Part shown: positions 16,805-24,172 of the stretch, piece by piece
Position numbering within the stretch: position 1 is the stretch's first letter
Layout: each line of letters begins with the position of its first letter
Source: Bryobacteraceae bacterium
GTDB taxonomy: Bacteria > Acidobacteriota > Terriglobia > Bryobacterales > Bryobacteraceae
Reading direction: 5' to 3'
Assembly (NCBI GenBank): GCA_025062235.1
Contig: JANXAE010000005.1
Span: forward strand, 1 to 45,861
Length of the DNA stretch: 45,861 nucleotides
Made by a program: the position numbers and the translations under genes
The notes under the pieces: model-generated
Told to the model about the DNA's origin: nothing
Database searches by the model: none
Seen by the model: only the letters and a program-made list of their open reading frames with translations

Positions 16805-18160
16805 ATGAGGACTCTCTCGAGGGTGGTCTGGTCGGAGGGCATGTACCTCGGGCCGCACCATTTCCAGTGGCAGAGCCGATACTACGAGGACGCCATTCAT
16901 TTCGCCACGTCCGCGCTGTGGTTCGAACCGTGGGGGCTGACCGGTTGTCGCCTCGATCCCGAGGCTCTGCTCAACGGGACGGTCGCCGTCCTTCACGCGC
17001 GCGGCATTTTTCCTGACGGCCTGCTTTTCGATATGCCGGAAAGCGATCCGCCTCCTCCTCCGCGCAACATCGCCGAGCTGTTTCCGCCCACCCGCGAGCG
17101 CCTGACGGTTCTGCTGGCGGTTCCCCCGCGGCGGCACGACGGAATGAACTGCCTGCCCGTGGAACGGCAGAACGGCGAGCCTGTGCGCTACCTCGCCGAG
17201 AACAGGTTGCTGCCGGACGAGAATACCGGCCGCGACGACAAGAGCGTACGGTTGGGACGCAAGAACATCCGGCTGATGACCGACACCGAGCCGATCGAGG
17301 ATTGGGTCACGCTGCCGCTGGCGCGCGTCATGCGCGATGGCGCGGGTCACTTCGTCTTCGATCCCGAGTTCATCCCGCCTTGCGTGGAGCTGAGCGCCAG
17401 CGACCGCTTGATGATGCTGCTGAAGCGACTGGTCGAAATCCTCGAGGTCAAGAGCGCGGCGCTCGCGCGCAGTTCGCGTGCGCAGCCGGGTTTCTCCGCC
17501 GGCTACTCGGCCCAAGAGGTAGCTTCCTTCTGGTTCCTGCACGCGATCAACTCGGCGCTGGCCCCGCTGCGCCACATCTATCTGACGCGGCGCGGGCATC
17601 CCGAGCAGTTGTATCTCGAACTGGTGCGCCTGGCCGGCGCACTCTGCACGTTCGGCTTGGAGAGCCATCCGCGCAACCTGCCTCTGTACGACCACCGCCA
17701 CCTGGACGAATGTTTCGCCGAGCTGGACCGCCACATCCGGTTTCACCTGGAGGCCCTGGTTCCCTCGCGCACGGTGAGCATTCCCTTGCGCAAGGCGGCC
17801 CAGTATTTCTACTTCGGCGACATTGCGGATACCCGCTGCCTCGGGCCGTCGCGCTGGATTCTCGGCATCCGTGCGCGGCTGGGTGAGGCCGAGTTGATCG
17901 CCAAGACGCCGCAGCTCGTCAAGGTCTGTTCGCAGCAGTTCGTGCCCGAACTTGTGCGGCGCGCCCTGCCGGGACTGGTGCTGACGCATCTGCCGGTCCC
18001 GCCCTCGGCGATCTCCGCACGTCTGGAATGGCAATACTTCAGCCTGACGAAAGCCGGGCCCTGCTGGGAACACATGGTCAAGACCAGGCAAGTGGGCATC
18101 TACGTTCCTGGCGAACTGCCCGAGCCCGAGCTCGAACTGCTCGTCATTCTGGAATCATGA
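16805..18160 (+). CDS. tssK: Type VI secretion baseplate protein TssK
   Basis: A 451-residue TssK/ImpJ/VasE family protein. TssK trimers are the baseplate component that connects the wedge to the TssL-TssM membrane complex in the cytoplasm. The family opening is clear (VVWSEGMYLGPHHFQWQSRY), as is the middle section (PLARVMRDGAGHFVFDPEFIPPCVELSAS) followed by the helical SAGYSAQEVASFWFLHAINS. The C-terminal part (VSIPLRKAAQYFYFGDI, then RLEWQYFSLTK and WEHMVKTRQVGIYVP) matches the receptor-type head domain. It begins an operon tssK-tssL-tssM-kinase. The upstream ribosome-binding site is weak (GACGG). Length is normal for the family. Confidence 0.94.
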   Translation: MRTLSRVVWSEGMYLGPHHFQWQSRYYEDAIHFATSALWFEPWGLTGCRLDPEALLNGTVAVLHARGIFPDGLLFDMPESDPPPPPRNIAELFPPTRERLTVLLAVPPRRHDGMNCLPVERQNGEPVRYLAENRLLPDENTGRDDKSVRLGRKNIRLMTDTEPIEDWVTLPLARVMRDGAGHFVFDPEFIPPCVELSASDRLMMLLKRLVEILEVKSAALARSSRAQPGFSAGYSAQEVASFWFLHAINSALAPLRHIYLTRRGHPEQLYLELVRLAGALCTFGLESHPRNLPLYDHRHLDECFAELDRHIRFHLEALVPSRTVSIPLRKAAQYFYFGDIADTRCLGPSRWILGIRARLGEAELIAKTPQLVKVCSQQFVPELVRRALPGLVLTHLPVPPSAISARLEWQYFSLTKAGPCWEHMVKTRQVGIYVPGELPEPELELLVILES

Positions 18161-18218
18161 GATGGCAGCGGGGCATGGCAGGCGCGCCGCTGCCGGTTGA
18201 TTGGGGGGAAACGACGGG

Positions 18219-18944
18219 ATGATGGCAATGCCGCCTGCGGGCGCGCGACACGAGCAGGCTGTTGCGCAGCGCCGTTCCGAGAACCTTGCGTTCCTGTTCC
18301 AGGAAATCCTCACCGTGATCGTGCGGCTGCGCTCCGGGCGTCACGCCGTTCAGGATGCGGAAATTTTTCGCGCGCAGATGCGCGAGGCGCTGCGGCAGGT
18401 GGACCAGCAGGCGCGGCTGCGGGGCTACTCCTCCGAGGATGTGAATCTGGCCATCTTCGCCGTCGTCGCCCTGCTCGATGAAACCATTCTGACCACGCGC
18501 AACCCGGTTTTCGCGCACTGGGCGCGCAAGCCCATGCAGGAGGAGCTCTTCGGCCACCACGTTGCGGGGGAGATCTTTTTCCAGAACTTGCAAGCGCTGC
18601 TCGGGCTGAAGGATTCGCAAGAGCTGGCCGACCTGCTCGAGGTCTATTATCTGTGTTTGCTGCTCGGCTTCGCAGGTCGCTACGGAGCCGGCGGCCGCGG
18701 CGAGCTGCGTTCGATCACACAGGCGGTTGCAGAGAAGATTCGGCGCATCCGCGCCCCGGGCGCGGACTTCTCGCCGGCGTGGCTGCCGCCTGCCGAAGCG
18801 GTCCCGGGAGCGAATTTCGATCCGTGGGTGCGGCGGCTGGCTTGGGCCGCTGCCGGTTCGTTGGCGTTGGCGGCCCTGTTGTTCCTCGTCTTTCGAATGC
18901 TATTGACCGGAGACATGCGCGAGCTCGCCGGTTTGCTGGCCTAG
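18219..18944 (+). CDS. tssL: Type VI secretion membrane protein TssL (DotU/IcmH)
   Basis: A 241-residue TssL protein of the inner-membrane T6SS complex. The cytoplasmic helical domain shows the DotU pattern: LAFLFQEILTVIVRLRSGR, AIFAVVALLDETIL, FGHHVAGEIFFQNLQALL and LLEVYYLCLLLGFAGRYG. A single C-terminal transmembrane helix lies at about residues 212-234 (LAWAAAGSLALAALLFLVF). There is no C-terminal OmpA-like peptidoglycan-binding domain, so cell-wall anchoring must come from elsewhere. The start is the first of two tandem ATGs (18219 and 18222), preceded by GGGGGGAA. It lies 58 bp after tssK and 9 bp before tssM. Confidence 0.94.
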   Translation: MMAMPPAGARHEQAVAQRRSENLAFLFQEILTVIVRLRSGRHAVQDAEIFRAQMREALRQVDQQARLRGYSSEDVNLAIFAVVALLDETILTTRNPVFAHWARKPMQEELFGHHVAGEIFFQNLQALLGLKDSQELADLLEVYYLCLLLGFAGRYGAGGRGELRSITQAVAEKIRRIRAPGADFSPAWLPPAEAVPGANFDPWVRRLAWAAAGSLALAALLFLVFRMLLTGDMRELAGLLA

Positions 18945-18953
18945 GGGGTGCGG

Positions 18954-21900
18954 ATGCTGCGGGACGTCTGGTATCTGATGGCGGGCGGAACGCTCGCTGT
19001 GGGTTGGATGCTCTCCTGGTTCGTTCCTTCCTGGCTGGGCCTGCCCACCTTGGACCTGTGGGTGTTGCGCGGCGGTCTGGCGGTGGTTGTCTTGCTGGGG
19101 GCACTGGCCATCTTGTGGCTGGCACGCCGCAAGCGCGAAACGGCCGCGCGCGAGGGTGAGCAGGCCGGGGCGGCGCCGGCCGCCGAAGTCGAGCTGTTGC
19201 GGCGCGAGGCCGAGAAGCGGCTCTCGGCGGCTCGCGGGCGATCGGTGCGAGTGGGGGACCTTCCGGTGGTCCTCATCCTCGGGGAGACGGGCTCGGCCAA
19301 GACGAGCTCGGTGGTCCATTCCGGATTGGATCCGGAGCTGCTCGCGGGACAGGTGTACCAGGAAACGGCTGTCGTTCCAACACGCGGCGTCAACATCTGG
19401 TTGGCTGGCCAGACGCTGTTGGTGGAGGCCGGCGGCCGTCTGCTGGCCGAAGGCGGACGATGGCTGCGCCTGTTGCGCCGGCTCGCGCCCGGCGGCCTGT
19501 CGGCTCTGCGCCGAGCACAGCAACCCCCGCGCGCCGCCGTGGTTGCCGTAGACTGCGAACGGTTCTTGCGCCCCGGGGCAGCGGAAGCGCTCGCCGCAGC
19601 CGCGCGTCAGCTGCATGCGCGCCTGGGGGAGATCTCGCATCAGTTGGGCATCAGCCTCCCGGTCTACGTGCTGTTCACCAAGCTCGACCGGGTGAACTTC
19701 TTCGCCGAGTTCGTTCGCAATTTGAGCCAGGAAGAGGCGGGACAGGTGTTCGGCATCACCCTGGCGGCCGAAGCGCCGTCGGCTACCGCGGTGTACGCCG
19801 AGCAACAGACGCAGCGACTGACGGAAGCTTTCAACCGCCTTTTCCACTCCCTCTGTGACCGGCGCCTGGACCTTCTGCCGCGCGAGAACGACCTCGAAAA
19901 GGTTTCCGGCGCCTACGAGTTTCCGCGGGAATTCGCCAAGCTGCGCAAGCTCGTCGTGCAGTTCCTGGTAGACCTGTGCAGGCCCAGTCAGTTGCGGGCG
20001 AACCCCTTTCTGCGCGGCTTTTACTTCTCGGGCGTGCGCGCCGTGGTGGTGCAGGAGGCAGCGCCAGCCGTCCCCAGCCCCCGGCCCGCTGAGCGGCCCT
20101 CGGCGGTGGCCGGGGCGACAGGCATGTTCCATGCGGGCGCCTTGCATCCGCTCCCCACGGCGCCCTCGGCGGCTCCCCCCGCCGGTGCGCGTCGCGTGCC
20201 GCAATGGCTGTTCCTGACGCGCCTGTTTCACAGCGTGATCCTTCAGGACCGGGCTGCACAGAGCGCGAGCGCGGCGAGCTTTCGGGCCAGCATGTGGCGC
20301 CGCGTGGCGCTGGGCCTGGCGGGAGTGCTGCTGGTGGCCTTCAGCATCGCGCTCGTGATTTCCTATTTCGGCAATCGCGCCCTGGTGCGCGAGGCGATGG
20401 CCGCGGCCCGCGCCGCGACGCCCTCGGAGACCCCTGGCGAGCTGGCTTCGACCGATTCTCTGCGTCGGCTCGACGGCCTCAGGGAGATTGCGCGGACGCT
20501 CGCCGTGTGGCAGCGCGAGGGGCCTCCGCTGCGTTTGCGCTGGGGTTTGTACGCCGGCGACGAGCTTTATCCCGTCGTGCGACGCGTCTATTTCCGCCGT
20601 TTCCACCAACTGCTCTTCGGCCAAGCGCAGCGCGCCATGCTGACGCACCTTTCCGGTTTGCCTGCTTCCCCGGGCCCCAACGATCAGTACGGTCCCACCT
20701 ACGACACGCTCAAGGCCTATCTGATCACGACGTCGCATCCGGAAAAGAGCACGCGGGCCTTCCTCGCACCCGTGCTGTTCCGTTACTGGGCGGCGGGCCG
20801 GGACGTAGGCGCCGAGCGTGCGGCGCTGGCCGAGCGGCAGTTCGATTTCTACGCCGAGGAGCTGCCCGCGGGCAACCCGTTCTCGGGCGTGCCGGAGATG
20901 GTCGCGGTCGAGCGGGCCCGTCGTTATCTGGCGCAGTTCGGGGCGCGCGAGCGCGTTTACCGACTCATGCTCGCCGAGGCGTCGGCGAAGAACCCTTCGG
21001 TGAGCTACAACCGAACGTTCCCGGGTTTTTCGCAGGTGGTGATCAACAATCGGGAAGTGCCGGGCGCCTTCACCAAGGCCGGCTGGGCCACGATGCAGGA
21101 AGCGCTGAAGAACGTTCCGAAGTACTTTGCCGGCGAGGAGTGGGTGCTGGGCAAGCAGGCCGCCTCCCCCACCGACATCGCTCAACTGGAGAGGGAGTTG
21201 CGCGAGCTCTACCGTAACGATTACCGCCAGCAGTGGCGCGATTTCCTGCGTTCCACGGCGATCGCACGCTACGCCAGCCTCCAGGATGCGGCGCGCAAAC
21301 TCGGCCTGCTGGCAGGCAACCAAGCGCCGCTGCTGGCGCTGTTTTGGCTGGTTTCGGAAAACACCGCGGGCGTGCCGGAAATCGCAGAGGTTTTCCAGCC
21401 GGTCCAAGCGCTGGTTCCCCCCGGAACGAAGGGGATGTTCATCCAACCGCCCAACCAGCCGTACATGAGCGCGCTGATGAATCTGCAAACCACGCTGGAA
21501 TCCGTGCTCGCCGGGCCGGGCGGCACGGCCGATCAGGCAGCCGCGCAGCAGACCCTGGCCAAGGCTGCCGAGGCACGCGCCGTCACTCGACAGATCGCGC
21601 TCGGCTTCCGGCCCGACCCCGAGGGACAGGTGGACGTGAAGACTCGGGCTCTGATGGAGGATCCGATCACGCACCTGGAGGCGCTGCTGCGCGGCATCGG
21701 GCCCGCCGAGCTCAGGGCCAGGGCACAGGCCTTCTGTGCGGAGTTCCGGCAGTTGATGGCTCGGTACCCCTTCGATCCCAAAGCCTCCGTACAGGCCACA
21801 CTGGAGGACTTCAACCGCGTCTTCCGCCCGGGCGACGGCGCGCTGTGGCGCTTCTACCAGGAGCATCTCCAGAATCTGATCGTCAAGGAAGGCGCCCAGT

Positions 21901-22436
21901 GGGTGGCCAGGCCGGGGGCGACGATGACCGTCACGCCCGCCTTCCTGGCCTTCTTCAACCGGGCGGCTGCCTTCAGCGAGGCGGTGTACAAAGGGGGCCA
22001 GCAGCCGCAGCTCACCTATGCCCTGCGCTCGAATCTGACAGGCCAGAACCAGTCGCTGGAGCTCTGGATTGACGGTCAGACGCTGAGCAACGGGCCGGGC
22101 CGCACGGTGGCCCAGCAGTTCACCTGGCCCGGCAAGCAACCGGGCGGCGTCCGCCTGACCGTGCGCTTCGGGGGGGAGCCGTTCCAGTGGCCGCGCTATG
22201 ATGGCCTTTGGGCGGCGTTTGACTTCTTCGCCGACGCGGAGGAAAAGGCTCAGGTGTCGGGATCGGTCTACACGCTGGAGTGGACGTTGCGCACGGGCGC
22301 TGCTGGCCGGCAGGTGACAACCGCGACCGGCCAGCCGGTTTCGGTGCGGTTCGACCTGGACATGCTCGGTGCCCCGCCCATCTTCCGCAAGGGGTATTTC
22401 TCGGGTTGGAACTGCGTGGTCGAGGTGGCACGCTGA
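18954..22436 (+). CDS. tssM: Type VI secretion membrane protein TssM (IcmF)
   Basis: An 1160-residue IcmF/TssM protein, the large component of the T6SS trans-envelope complex. Two N-terminal membrane helices (~5-27 and ~38-58) precede a cytoplasmic NTPase-like domain. Its Walker A-like loop is GETGSAKTS (residues 110-118), in which Ala replaces the usual glycine before the lysine. A TKLD motif (VYVLFTKLDRVNFFAEF) follows. A third helix at ~446-468 (VALGLAGVLLVAFSIALVISYF) leads into the large periplasmic part, with the DUF1215/IcmF C-terminal segment near the end (RLTVRFGGEPFQWPRYDGLW, then FDLDMLGAPPIF). I prefer ATG 18954, with GGGGG about 6 nt upstream; GTG at 18948 is possible. The stop overlaps the kinase ATG (TGATG). 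Confidence 0.94.
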   Translation: MLRDVWYLMAGGTLAVGWMLSWFVPSWLGLPTLDLWVLRGGLAVVVLLGALAILWLARRKRETAAREGEQAGAAPAAEVELLRREAEKRLSAARGRSVRVGDLPVVLILGETGSAKTSSVVHSGLDPELLAGQVYQETAVVPTRGVNIWLAGQTLLVEAGGRLLAEGGRWLRLLRRLAPGGLSALRRAQQPPRAAVVAVDCERFLRPGAAEALAAAARQLHARLGEISHQLGISLPVYVLFTKLDRVNFFAEFVRNLSQEEAGQVFGITLAAEAPSATAVYAEQQTQRLTEAFNRLFHSLCDRRLDLLPRENDLEKVSGAYEFPREFAKLRKLVVQFLVDLCRPSQLRANPFLRGFYFSGVRAVVVQEAAPAVPSPRPAERPSAVAGATGMFHAGALHPLPTAPSAAPPAGARRVPQWLFLTRLFHSVILQDRAAQSASAASFRASMWRRVALGLAGVLLVAFSIALVISYFGNRALVREAMAAARAATPSETPGELASTDSLRRLDGLREIARTLAVWQREGPPLRLRWGLYAGDELYPVVRRVYFRRFHQLLFGQAQRAMLTHLSGLPASPGPNDQYGPTYDTLKAYLITTSHPEKSTRAFLAPVLFRYWAAGRDVGAERAALAERQFDFYAEELPAGNPFSGVPEMVAVERARRYLAQFGARERVYRLMLAEASAKNPSVSYNRTFPGFSQVVINNREVPGAFTKAGWATMQEALKNVPKYFAGEEWVLGKQAASPTDIAQLERELRELYRNDYRQQWRDFLRSTAIARYASLQDAARKLGLLAGNQAPLLALFWLVSENTAGVPEIAEVFQPVQALVPPGTKGMFIQPPNQPYMSALMNLQTTLESVLAGPGGTADQAAAQQTLAKAAEARAVTRQIALGFRPDPEGQVDVKTRALMEDPITHLEALLRGIGPAELRARAQAFCAEFRQLMARYPFDPKASVQATLEDFNRVFRPGDGALWRFYQEHLQNLIVKEGAQWVARPGATMTVTPAFLAFFNRAAAFSEAVYKGGQQPQLTYALRSNLTGQNQSLELWIDGQTLSNGPGRTVAQQFTWPGKQPGGVRLTVRFGGEPFQWPRYDGLWAAFDFFADAEEKAQVSGSVYTLEWTLRTGAAGRQVTTATGQPVSVRFDLDMLGAPPIFRKGYFSGWNCVVEVAR

Positions 22437-24172
22437 TGGACAAGCCTTCGCTCCCTGCGCGGGTCGGCAAGTACGAGCTCGAAGAGTTCCTGGGCGGCGG
22501 TATGTCCCACGTCTACCGCGCGCGCGACACGCTGATCGGCGGGACGGTGGCGCTGAAGATCCTGAGCGAGGCCGCCAATCGCGACCCCGACGCGCGCGCC
22601 CGCTTCCTGCGCGAGGCGCGCATGGCGCGCAACGTCAGCCACGAGAACATCGTCGCCATCTACGACTTCGGCGAGGAGCAGGGGCGCCCTTACATGGTCA
22701 TGGAGTTCCTGCGGGGCGAGACCCTCCGCTCGGCGATCGAACGTGGCCGCACCGGGGACCTGGCTTCGCGCCTGCGCATTGCCATCCAAATCGCCCGCGC
22801 CATGGAGTGCATCCATGCCCAGGGCATCATCCACCGCGACATCAAGCCGGACAATATCAACCTCGGTCCCGATGGCAAGGTCAAGCTGATGGATTTCGGG
22901 ATCGCCAAGACCGAGGACATGACCATTACGCGCGCCGGCTTCACTCTGGGCACGCCCCACTACATGGCGCCCGAACAGGTGATGGGGCAGAAGCTCACTC
23001 CCCAGGTGGATGTCTACGCTTTCGGGATCCTGCTTTTCGAGCTGATGACCGGCGTCAAGCCGATCAAGGCGGACACGGTCGAGCGCATCTTCTACGAGAT
23101 TCTGCGCAAGCCGCTCGACCTCACGCCGATGCGCATGCTGGGGTTGCCCGCGGCGTTGTGCGAACTGGTGACGCGCTGCACGGCCAAGTCGCCCGCTGAA
23201 CGTCCGCAGAACTTCGCCGCCGTCCGTGAGGAGCTCGAGCGCATCCTCGAGCGCGTAGAGCACCCGAGCCCGGCGAGTGCGCTGGCCGGCGTGGTCGCAC
23301 GCCTGCGCTGGGCGTTGGCGTCGGTCTCCAGCAAGCTGCGCGCGGGGACGCGGAAGGGCGTGGCGGCGGTCTCCTCCATACCCCGCCGCTCCTGGAAAAT
23401 CGCCGGTGCGGCCGTGCTCCTGGCCATTGCACTGGCTGCGGGCATCGCCTTGTGGCCCACTCGCCAGCAGGCCACTCCGAAACCCAAGACTCTGGCGCCC
23501 GTGCTCCAGACGTCCACCGGGGAAATGGTGCTCGTTCCTGCGGGCGAGTTCCTGTTCGGTCCCGAGAAGCGTCCGGTGAAGCTTCCCGCCTTCTACATTG
23601 ACCGCACCGAGGTGACCTATGGGGCGTACATTCAGTTCTGCCGGGCCAGAGGACTGCCTCCGCCGCCGGGCTATTCCGAAGCACGGCTGAATTACCCGGT
23701 CGCGGAGATCACCATCGCTGAGGCGCGCCAGTTCGCCGCGTGGGCGAACAAGCGCTTGCCCACGCCCGAGGAGTGGGAAAAAGCAGCGCGGGGAACCGAC
23801 GGCCGCGTCTATCCCTGGGGCGATCAGGCCGATCCCGAGCGGGCCAACGTGAGCGACAACTCCGCACTCATGGTGCACGCCGCCATGCCGGCGCTCTCGT
23901 TTCGCGGCGGCGCCAGCCCCTTCGGGGTCCTGAACATGGTCGGCAACGTGGCCGAGTACGTCGAACAGCGCGTCACGCCCACGCCGGAAGCCATCGCACG
24001 CTTCGCGAAGCTGCTCGAGCCGCCCCCCGGTCCGGGCGAGGAATGGTCGGCGGTGCGCGGCGGGTCCTGGACGACGAAACTCGCCGATGCGGCCGTCACC
24101 GCTTTCTTCGCTGCCCCTGCCCGGTGGCGGGATCCGACCGTGGGTTTCCGCTGCGTGCGCGCCGCCGAGTGA
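22436..24172 (+). CDS. Membrane Ser/Thr kinase with periplasmic FGE/SUMF1-like domain (PpkA-TagR-like fusion)
   Basis: A 578-residue protein. Residues ~10-275 form a complete Hanks-type kinase: Gly-rich loop at 20-26 (LGGGMSHVY), Lys41 (VALKIL), HRD at 133-135 (HRDIKPDNINL), DFG at 153-155 and APE at 178-180 (GTPHYMAPEQV). All key catalytic residues are present. A membrane span lies at ~319-341 (AGAAVLLAIALAAGIALW). The C-terminal ~215 residues are an FGE-sulfatase/SUMF1-like domain (GEMVLVPAGEFLFGPE, FYIDRTEVTYGAY, RLPTPEEWEKAARG, VRGGSW, VGFRCVRA). That domain lacks the catalytic cysteines of true formylglycine-generating enzyme, so it is probably a sensor or binder. In Pseudomonas the kinase PpkA and the periplasmic FGE-like TagR are separate proteins of the T6SS threonine-phosphorylation pathway. 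Overlap with tssM supports a T6SS regulatory role. Confidence 0.9.
   Translation: MDKPSLPARVGKYELEEFLGGGMSHVYRARDTLIGGTVALKILSEAANRDPDARARFLREARMARNVSHENIVAIYDFGEEQGRPYMVMEFLRGETLRSAIERGRTGDLASRLRIAIQIARAMECIHAQGIIHRDIKPDNINLGPDGKVKLMDFGIAKTEDMTITRAGFTLGTPHYMAPEQVMGQKLTPQVDVYAFGILLFELMTGVKPIKADTVERIFYEILRKPLDLTPMRMLGLPAALCELVTRCTAKSPAERPQNFAAVREELERILERVEHPSPASALAGVVARLRWALASVSSKLRAGTRKGVAAVSSIPRRSWKIAGAAVLLAIALAAGIALWPTRQQATPKPKTLAPVLQTSTGEMVLVPAGEFLFGPEKRPVKLPAFYIDRTEVTYGAYIQFCRARGLPPPPGYSEARLNYPVAEITIAEARQFAAWANKRLPTPEEWEKAARGTDGRVYPWGDQADPERANVSDNSALMVHAAMPALSFRGGASPFGVLNMVGNVAEYVEQRVTPTPEAIARFAKLLEPPPGPGEEWSAVRGGSWTTKLADAAVTAFFAAPARWRDPTVGFRCVRAAE

Follow-up and report, generated by a model that had tools for sequence, protein, structure and literature searches.

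The gene that closes a tssK-tssL-tssM unit in a Bryobacterales genome encodes a protein of 578 residues in which a complete Hanks kinase, a single membrane span and a catalytically dead FGE-like domain, its catalytic residues lost, form one chain. The link of this fusion to the T6SS is well supported, because the gene order is conserved and because the full-length main-clade fusion is confined, within the family, to TssK-positive genomes. On balance, we think that it is probably a T6SS-dedicated receptor kinase, with a non-catalytic ectodomain that binds a ligand or a protein and with a substrate other than Fha. With ectodomain and kinase on one chain, ligand and activation are directly testable with one purified protein, and in the Acidobacteriota the regulation of the T6SS seems to have received little study. 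Features are given by position in the window, by which we mean the whole stretch of DNA analysed (45,861 nucleotides).

16805..18160, + strand: tssK (VasE), the tssLM-side paralogue of two TssK in the genome (Pfam)
18201..18944, + strand: tssL (DotU), short form (Pfam, NCBIfam)
18948..22436, + strand: tssM (IcmF), 1162 aa (Pfam; NCBIfam TIGR03348 above cut-off)
22434..22438, + strand: TGATG overlap of the tssM stop TGA (22434-22436) and the kinase ATG (22436-22438)
22436..24172, + strand: kinase-TM-FGE-like fusion, 578 aa, last gene of the tssK-tssL-tssM-kinase unit
22472..23218, + strand: Hanks-type Ser/Thr kinase domain, residues 13-261, catalytic residues intact (Pfam Pkinase 1.5e-49)
23399..23455, + strand: single transmembrane helix, residues 322-340 (hydropathy scan; helix 320-338 in the model)
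23519..24160, + strand: FGE/SUMF1-like (C-type-lectin-type) domain, residues 362-575, predicted periplasmic (Pfam FGE-sulfatase 7.6e-35)

Genomic setting and domain organization

The window is contig C220 of a metagenome-assembled genome (3.2 Mb, 81% complete). The tssK, tssL and tssM genes all lie 5' of the kinase-FGE gene on the same strand, and the start of the latter overlaps the tssM stop, as in translational coupling. No T6SS genes other than these three and the fusion were identified in the window; TssC (C263), a second TssK (C231) and one TssF (C133) are on other contigs, and the genome holds a single T6SS set, with TssF and TssC in one copy each. The incomplete assembly yielded no Hcp, but both same-genus genomes have it. 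Differences between the fusion gene and its nearest relative number 68/43/235 by codon position, which indicates purifying selection and, together with the conserved domains, rules out a chance or mis-called ORF.

The first-pass annotation, made from the letters alone, had described a complete Hanks kinase, one membrane span, an FGE-like domain without catalytic cysteines, TGATG coupling to tssM and a window free of PppA and Fha genes, and each of these descriptions stands. In the kinase domain, K41, E60, the HRD motif (133-135), N140, the DFG motif (153-155) and R256 do not vary among 37 homologues, and the glycine-rich loop is one residue shorter than that of StkP. All homologues have one span only, between the kinase and the FGE domain, and positive charge flanks the span on its cytoplasmic side; the predicted topology is thus that of a cytoplasmic kinase with a periplasmic rather than cytoplasmic FGE-like part. 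The fusion therefore has the layout of a receptor kinase with a SUMF1-like ectodomain (kinase, one span, extracytoplasmic domain), and it shares with PpkA an intact Hanks kinase, one span followed by a C-terminal domain predicted to be periplasmic, and T6SS core genes alongside.

The segment of the ectodomain that corresponds to the FGE active site (RGGSWTTKLADA) contains no Cys, and the copper-binding catalytic Cys pair is absent from this segment in the fusion protein and in every main-clade homologue; one homologue (L119) has a lone, unrelated Cys there. Two other cysteines, Cys 402 and Cys 573, recur in most main-clade members and could possibly form a disulfide. Modelled alone with AlphaFold2, the ectodomain reaches a pLDDT of 97, and its Foldseek/VIA fold matches are CalU17 (Z 25.5), TvpA (25.1), PvdO (24.8), SUMF2 (24.4), PorK (24.1) and FGE (24), scores that differ by about one Z unit or little more. 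The closest solved folds (SUMF2/pFGE, CalU17, PvdO and TvpA) are soluble proteins and not kinases. Because the matched folds range from enzymes and pseudo-enzymes to a variable binding protein and a structural ring protein, the fold alone cannot choose between a sensor and a tether.

Gene order and co-occurrence with the T6SS

A search of 101 relatives with the fusion protein, from which 40 loci were fetched, gave 37 full-length kinase-FGE proteins (the window counted), and all 37 keep kinase, span and FGE domain. The order tssK-tssL-tssM-(kinase)-kinase-FGE occurs in 17 full-length cases, the window and 16 others, across genera of the family (Bryobacterales, Acidobacteriota). A further tssM-adjacent case is truncated by a contig end (G297), and the best named relative, the MAG Bryobacterales palsa_187 (L136), is the nineteenth case, with the order tssK-tssL-tssM-kinase-kinase/FGE. 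About half of the family's main-clade fusions do not adjoin tssM, and adjacent and non-adjacent members are intermixed in the fusion tree, which indicates one family whose gene has moved; the exception is a distant trio (L130-L132) that stands apart from the main family.

Within the window's family, 61 genomes were tallied, and a genome was counted as TssK-positive if it had a match better than 1e-100. A full-length main-clade fusion is present in 33 of the 41 TssK-positive genomes and in none of the 20 without a TssK of this type (Fisher p = 5e-10, uncorrected for relatedness), so that all 33 holders of such a fusion are TssK-positive. Shared ancestry may account for part of this co-occurrence. 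Two genomes without TssK carry fragments, a kinase part interrupted by a stop codon (G187, C1:58108-58902) and an FGE part alone (G333, L133 7043-7957), which are perhaps remnants left after loss of the T6SS.

In several loci, tssM and the fusion are separated by a further kinase that lacks FGE; its place inside the same kinase clade is what a duplication would give. Such a same-clade kinase follows tssM in L106, L109, L119, L124, L134 and L136, and a kinase-FGE gene lies next to it in all but L134 (G328), which showed no FGE fusion. Genes of two kinds, DUF4384-like and caspase-like (Peptidase C14 with TPR), recur near kinase-FGE genes (L102, L103, L118, L121, L123 and L130-L132), and they accompany T6SS-linked and unlinked copies alike; the Pfam check of these neighbours covered one caspase-like and two DUF4384 genes.

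Relation to PpkA and to other kinase-FGE fusions

TagR is FGE-like. In the H1-T6SS of Pseudomonas aeruginosa, PpkA and TagR exemplify a membrane kinase activated from the periplasm, and a periplasmic input is proposed here too. The P. aeruginosa system has two proteins plus TagQST, PppA and Fha1, whereas here there is one chain, with no PppA gene at the locus and no Fha; likewise, TagR is a separate, soluble protein secreted to the periplasm, while the FGE-like domain here is the C-terminus of the membrane kinase itself. In both P. aeruginosa (PMC10482370) and S. marcescens (PMC6082577), PpkA is reported to be activated by periplasmic partners, with TagR, RtkS and TssW as periplasmic or outer-membrane inputs (PMC10482370, PMC6082577, PMC12607579). 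The pairs RtkS-PpkA of Serratia marcescens and TssW-PpkA of Acidovorax citrulli thus resemble our proposal in bringing periplasmic input to a T6SS kinase, but RtkS and TssW are separate proteins, and the portions of these papers on which we draw carry no report that either is FGE-like (PMC6082577, PMC12607579).

The first-pass annotation had set the fusion against this split arrangement, and novelty in that respect is not supported. Of 40 gammaproteobacterial T6SS loci taken as a control (the class of a Chitinimonas genome), nine have kinase and FGE fused in one protein at the position expected for ppkA (L239, L240, L245, L247, L248, L250, L254, L255 and L258), after tssM and pppA and with an FHA gene upstream. 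Pfam supports both domains in seven of the eight that were scanned (all nine but L255), and the FGE part of L247 is detected only with a custom profile. A kinase-FGE fusion is therefore not peculiar to the window, and a fusion unique to the Bryobacterales lineage is ruled out; the gammaproteobacterial fusions independently tie FGE domains to T6SS kinases. In one further locus (L252, 328-3080) kinase and FGE are two overlapping ORFs whose close homologues are fused, reflecting either fission or a sequencing frameshift.

The two groups of fusions have in common a T6SS cluster and a Hanks kinase followed by a degenerate FGE domain at the C-terminus, mostly with a single span between kinase and FGE. 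The gammaproteobacterial proteins are larger (835-1210 aa), with about 290 aa from span to FGE domain, and, unlike the Bryobacterales fusion, they sit beside pppA and fha. In the kinase tree the Bryobacterales clade (100/99) and the gammaproteobacterial PpkA clade (100/100) are separate, but a joint clade is compatible with the AU test (p = 0.34, and 0.83 with the quick tree). We therefore withdraw the claim of a clearly independent origin from PpkA and regard such an origin as no more than possible. What remains of the reading as a PpkA-TagR-like fusion is a single T6SS-tied chain of a kinase and a predicted periplasmic FGE-like part; the kinase itself falls outside the PpkA clade in the tree, shared ancestry being possible, and the genus has no T6SS-type Fha.

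Single-span Ser/Thr kinases with a periplasmic SUMF1 domain are also known in the Planctomycetota, where SUMF1 is the third most frequent accessory domain (PMC11032199); their layout is the same as that of the fusion, but no T6SS link is described in that paper. No T6SS kinase with an FGE ectodomain came up in our literature search, a weak negative, as subscription papers were mostly outside the search. Among 40 T6SS loci sampled across the phylum (two of them the source genome's own), none from another Acidobacteriota family has the fusion beside tssM. Within the stretches fetched, two of these loci (L042 and L063) have a kinase that lacks FGE, and in two genomes (G249 and G171) a PP2C follows tssM. 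A plasmid search for TagR-like FGE proteins beside T6SS genes returned 275 records with distant matches. We speculate, more tentatively, that inactive FGE-like domains are a recurring input to T6SS kinases: in trans as TagR, in cis in the gammaproteobacterial kinases at the ppkA position, and in cis in a separate, Fha-free Acidobacteriota lineage that would phosphorylate the membrane complex or baseplate directly.

How the fusion may act

If the fusion is a dedicated receptor kinase, it would be co-produced with TssL and TssM of the membrane complex and with one TssK, with its kinase in the cytoplasm, one helix through the inner membrane and the dead FGE-like domain reaching into the periplasm, where it would most likely bind a ligand or an envelope protein. 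Binding by the ectodomain would unite kinase domains and lead to autophosphorylation, and the active kinase would then phosphorylate T6SS membrane or baseplate proteins, so that assembly is licensed. We infer each of these events, from ligand sensing through dimerisation to phosphorylation, and the same is true of the earlier suggestion that the fusion is a "simple trigger" for T6SS firing.

It is also conceivable, though rather unlikely in our view, that the FGE-like domain is a structural tether that keeps the kinase at the membrane complex by anchoring it to TssM or to the cell wall. The FGE-like protein PorK/GldK is a structural ring protein of the T9SS, and PorK is among the fold matches; the coupling to tssM suggests stoichiometric co-production; and PpkA of A. 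citrulli helps position the T6SS and TssW binds its periplasmic part (PMC12607579). But FGE/lectin folds also bind ligands, as in TvpA, and kinase-SUMF1 receptors are common without a T6SS, which argues that the domain does not need TssM.

Less probable still is a general-purpose receptor kinase that lies beside tssM by chance and has its job outside the T6SS. Chloroflexota and Planctomycetota do have kinase-FGE fusions with no T6SS genes in their vicinity, and the family has its own copies away from tssM. The first-pass annotation had named a common, T6SS-unrelated fusion in relatives as grounds for doubt, and such fusions are indeed common outside the T6SS; yet within the family the fusion tracks TssK, without exception among the full-length main-clade holders, and the gene order recurs across genera, which makes a generic kinase unrelated to the T6SS unlikely.

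We give little credence to the idea that the kinase controls T6SS gene expression rather than assembly, as PknS of Xanthomonas citri does via a sigma factor. PknS is a membrane Hanks kinase required for T6SS expression (PMC13147305), and the window's genus lacks an Fha substrate, but the PknS ectodomain is TPR, and translational coupling to tssM favours a partner in the membrane complex. Finally, a working enzyme (formylglycine or other oxidation) is hardly credible: the Pfam FGE-sulfatase match is above cut-off and the fold similarity is clear, but with the active-site Cys pair missing throughout the main clade we reject a catalytic FGE.

The dedicated receptor kinase that we favour would need targets. 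No PppA gene is present in the window or in the family's tssM-adjacent loci, and the source genome has one PP2C in total, away from the T6SS locus. There is no Fha gene in the window, and T6SS-type Fha is absent from its genus (the source genome and two congeners, 96% and 98% complete relatives included), whose only FHA protein is an FHA-GAF-SpoIIE protein (L003 10097-11728, G000 C264) that other family members also match. TssL is a reported target of PpkA in both A. tumefaciens and V. alginolyticus (PMC10482370, which for A. tumefaciens cites PMC3953482), so TssL, TssM or TssK are reasonable candidate substrates here, and by this analogy we would expect them rather than Fha to be phosphorylated. 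A conserved Fha-free T6SS kinase, if true, would mean that phosphorylation can control the system through targets other than Fha.

Some relatives do hold pieces of a phosphorylation circuit: in G326 and G355 a non-adjacent fusion is followed by an FHA gene with a weak FhaA_N match (L097 5393-6238; L098 7476-9858), and in G355 a PP2C also follows, an arrangement that recalls kinase-FHA-phosphatase operons. The source genome also has two TssK paralogues, that at 16805-18160 beside tssLM and another on C231 (L036 2747-4102, G000), the second usually lying near tssBC. The two belong to supported sister clades that span several Acidobacteriota families, and the genomes checked have a single TssF and a single TssC, possibly pointing to a T6SS baseplate with two kinds of TssK.
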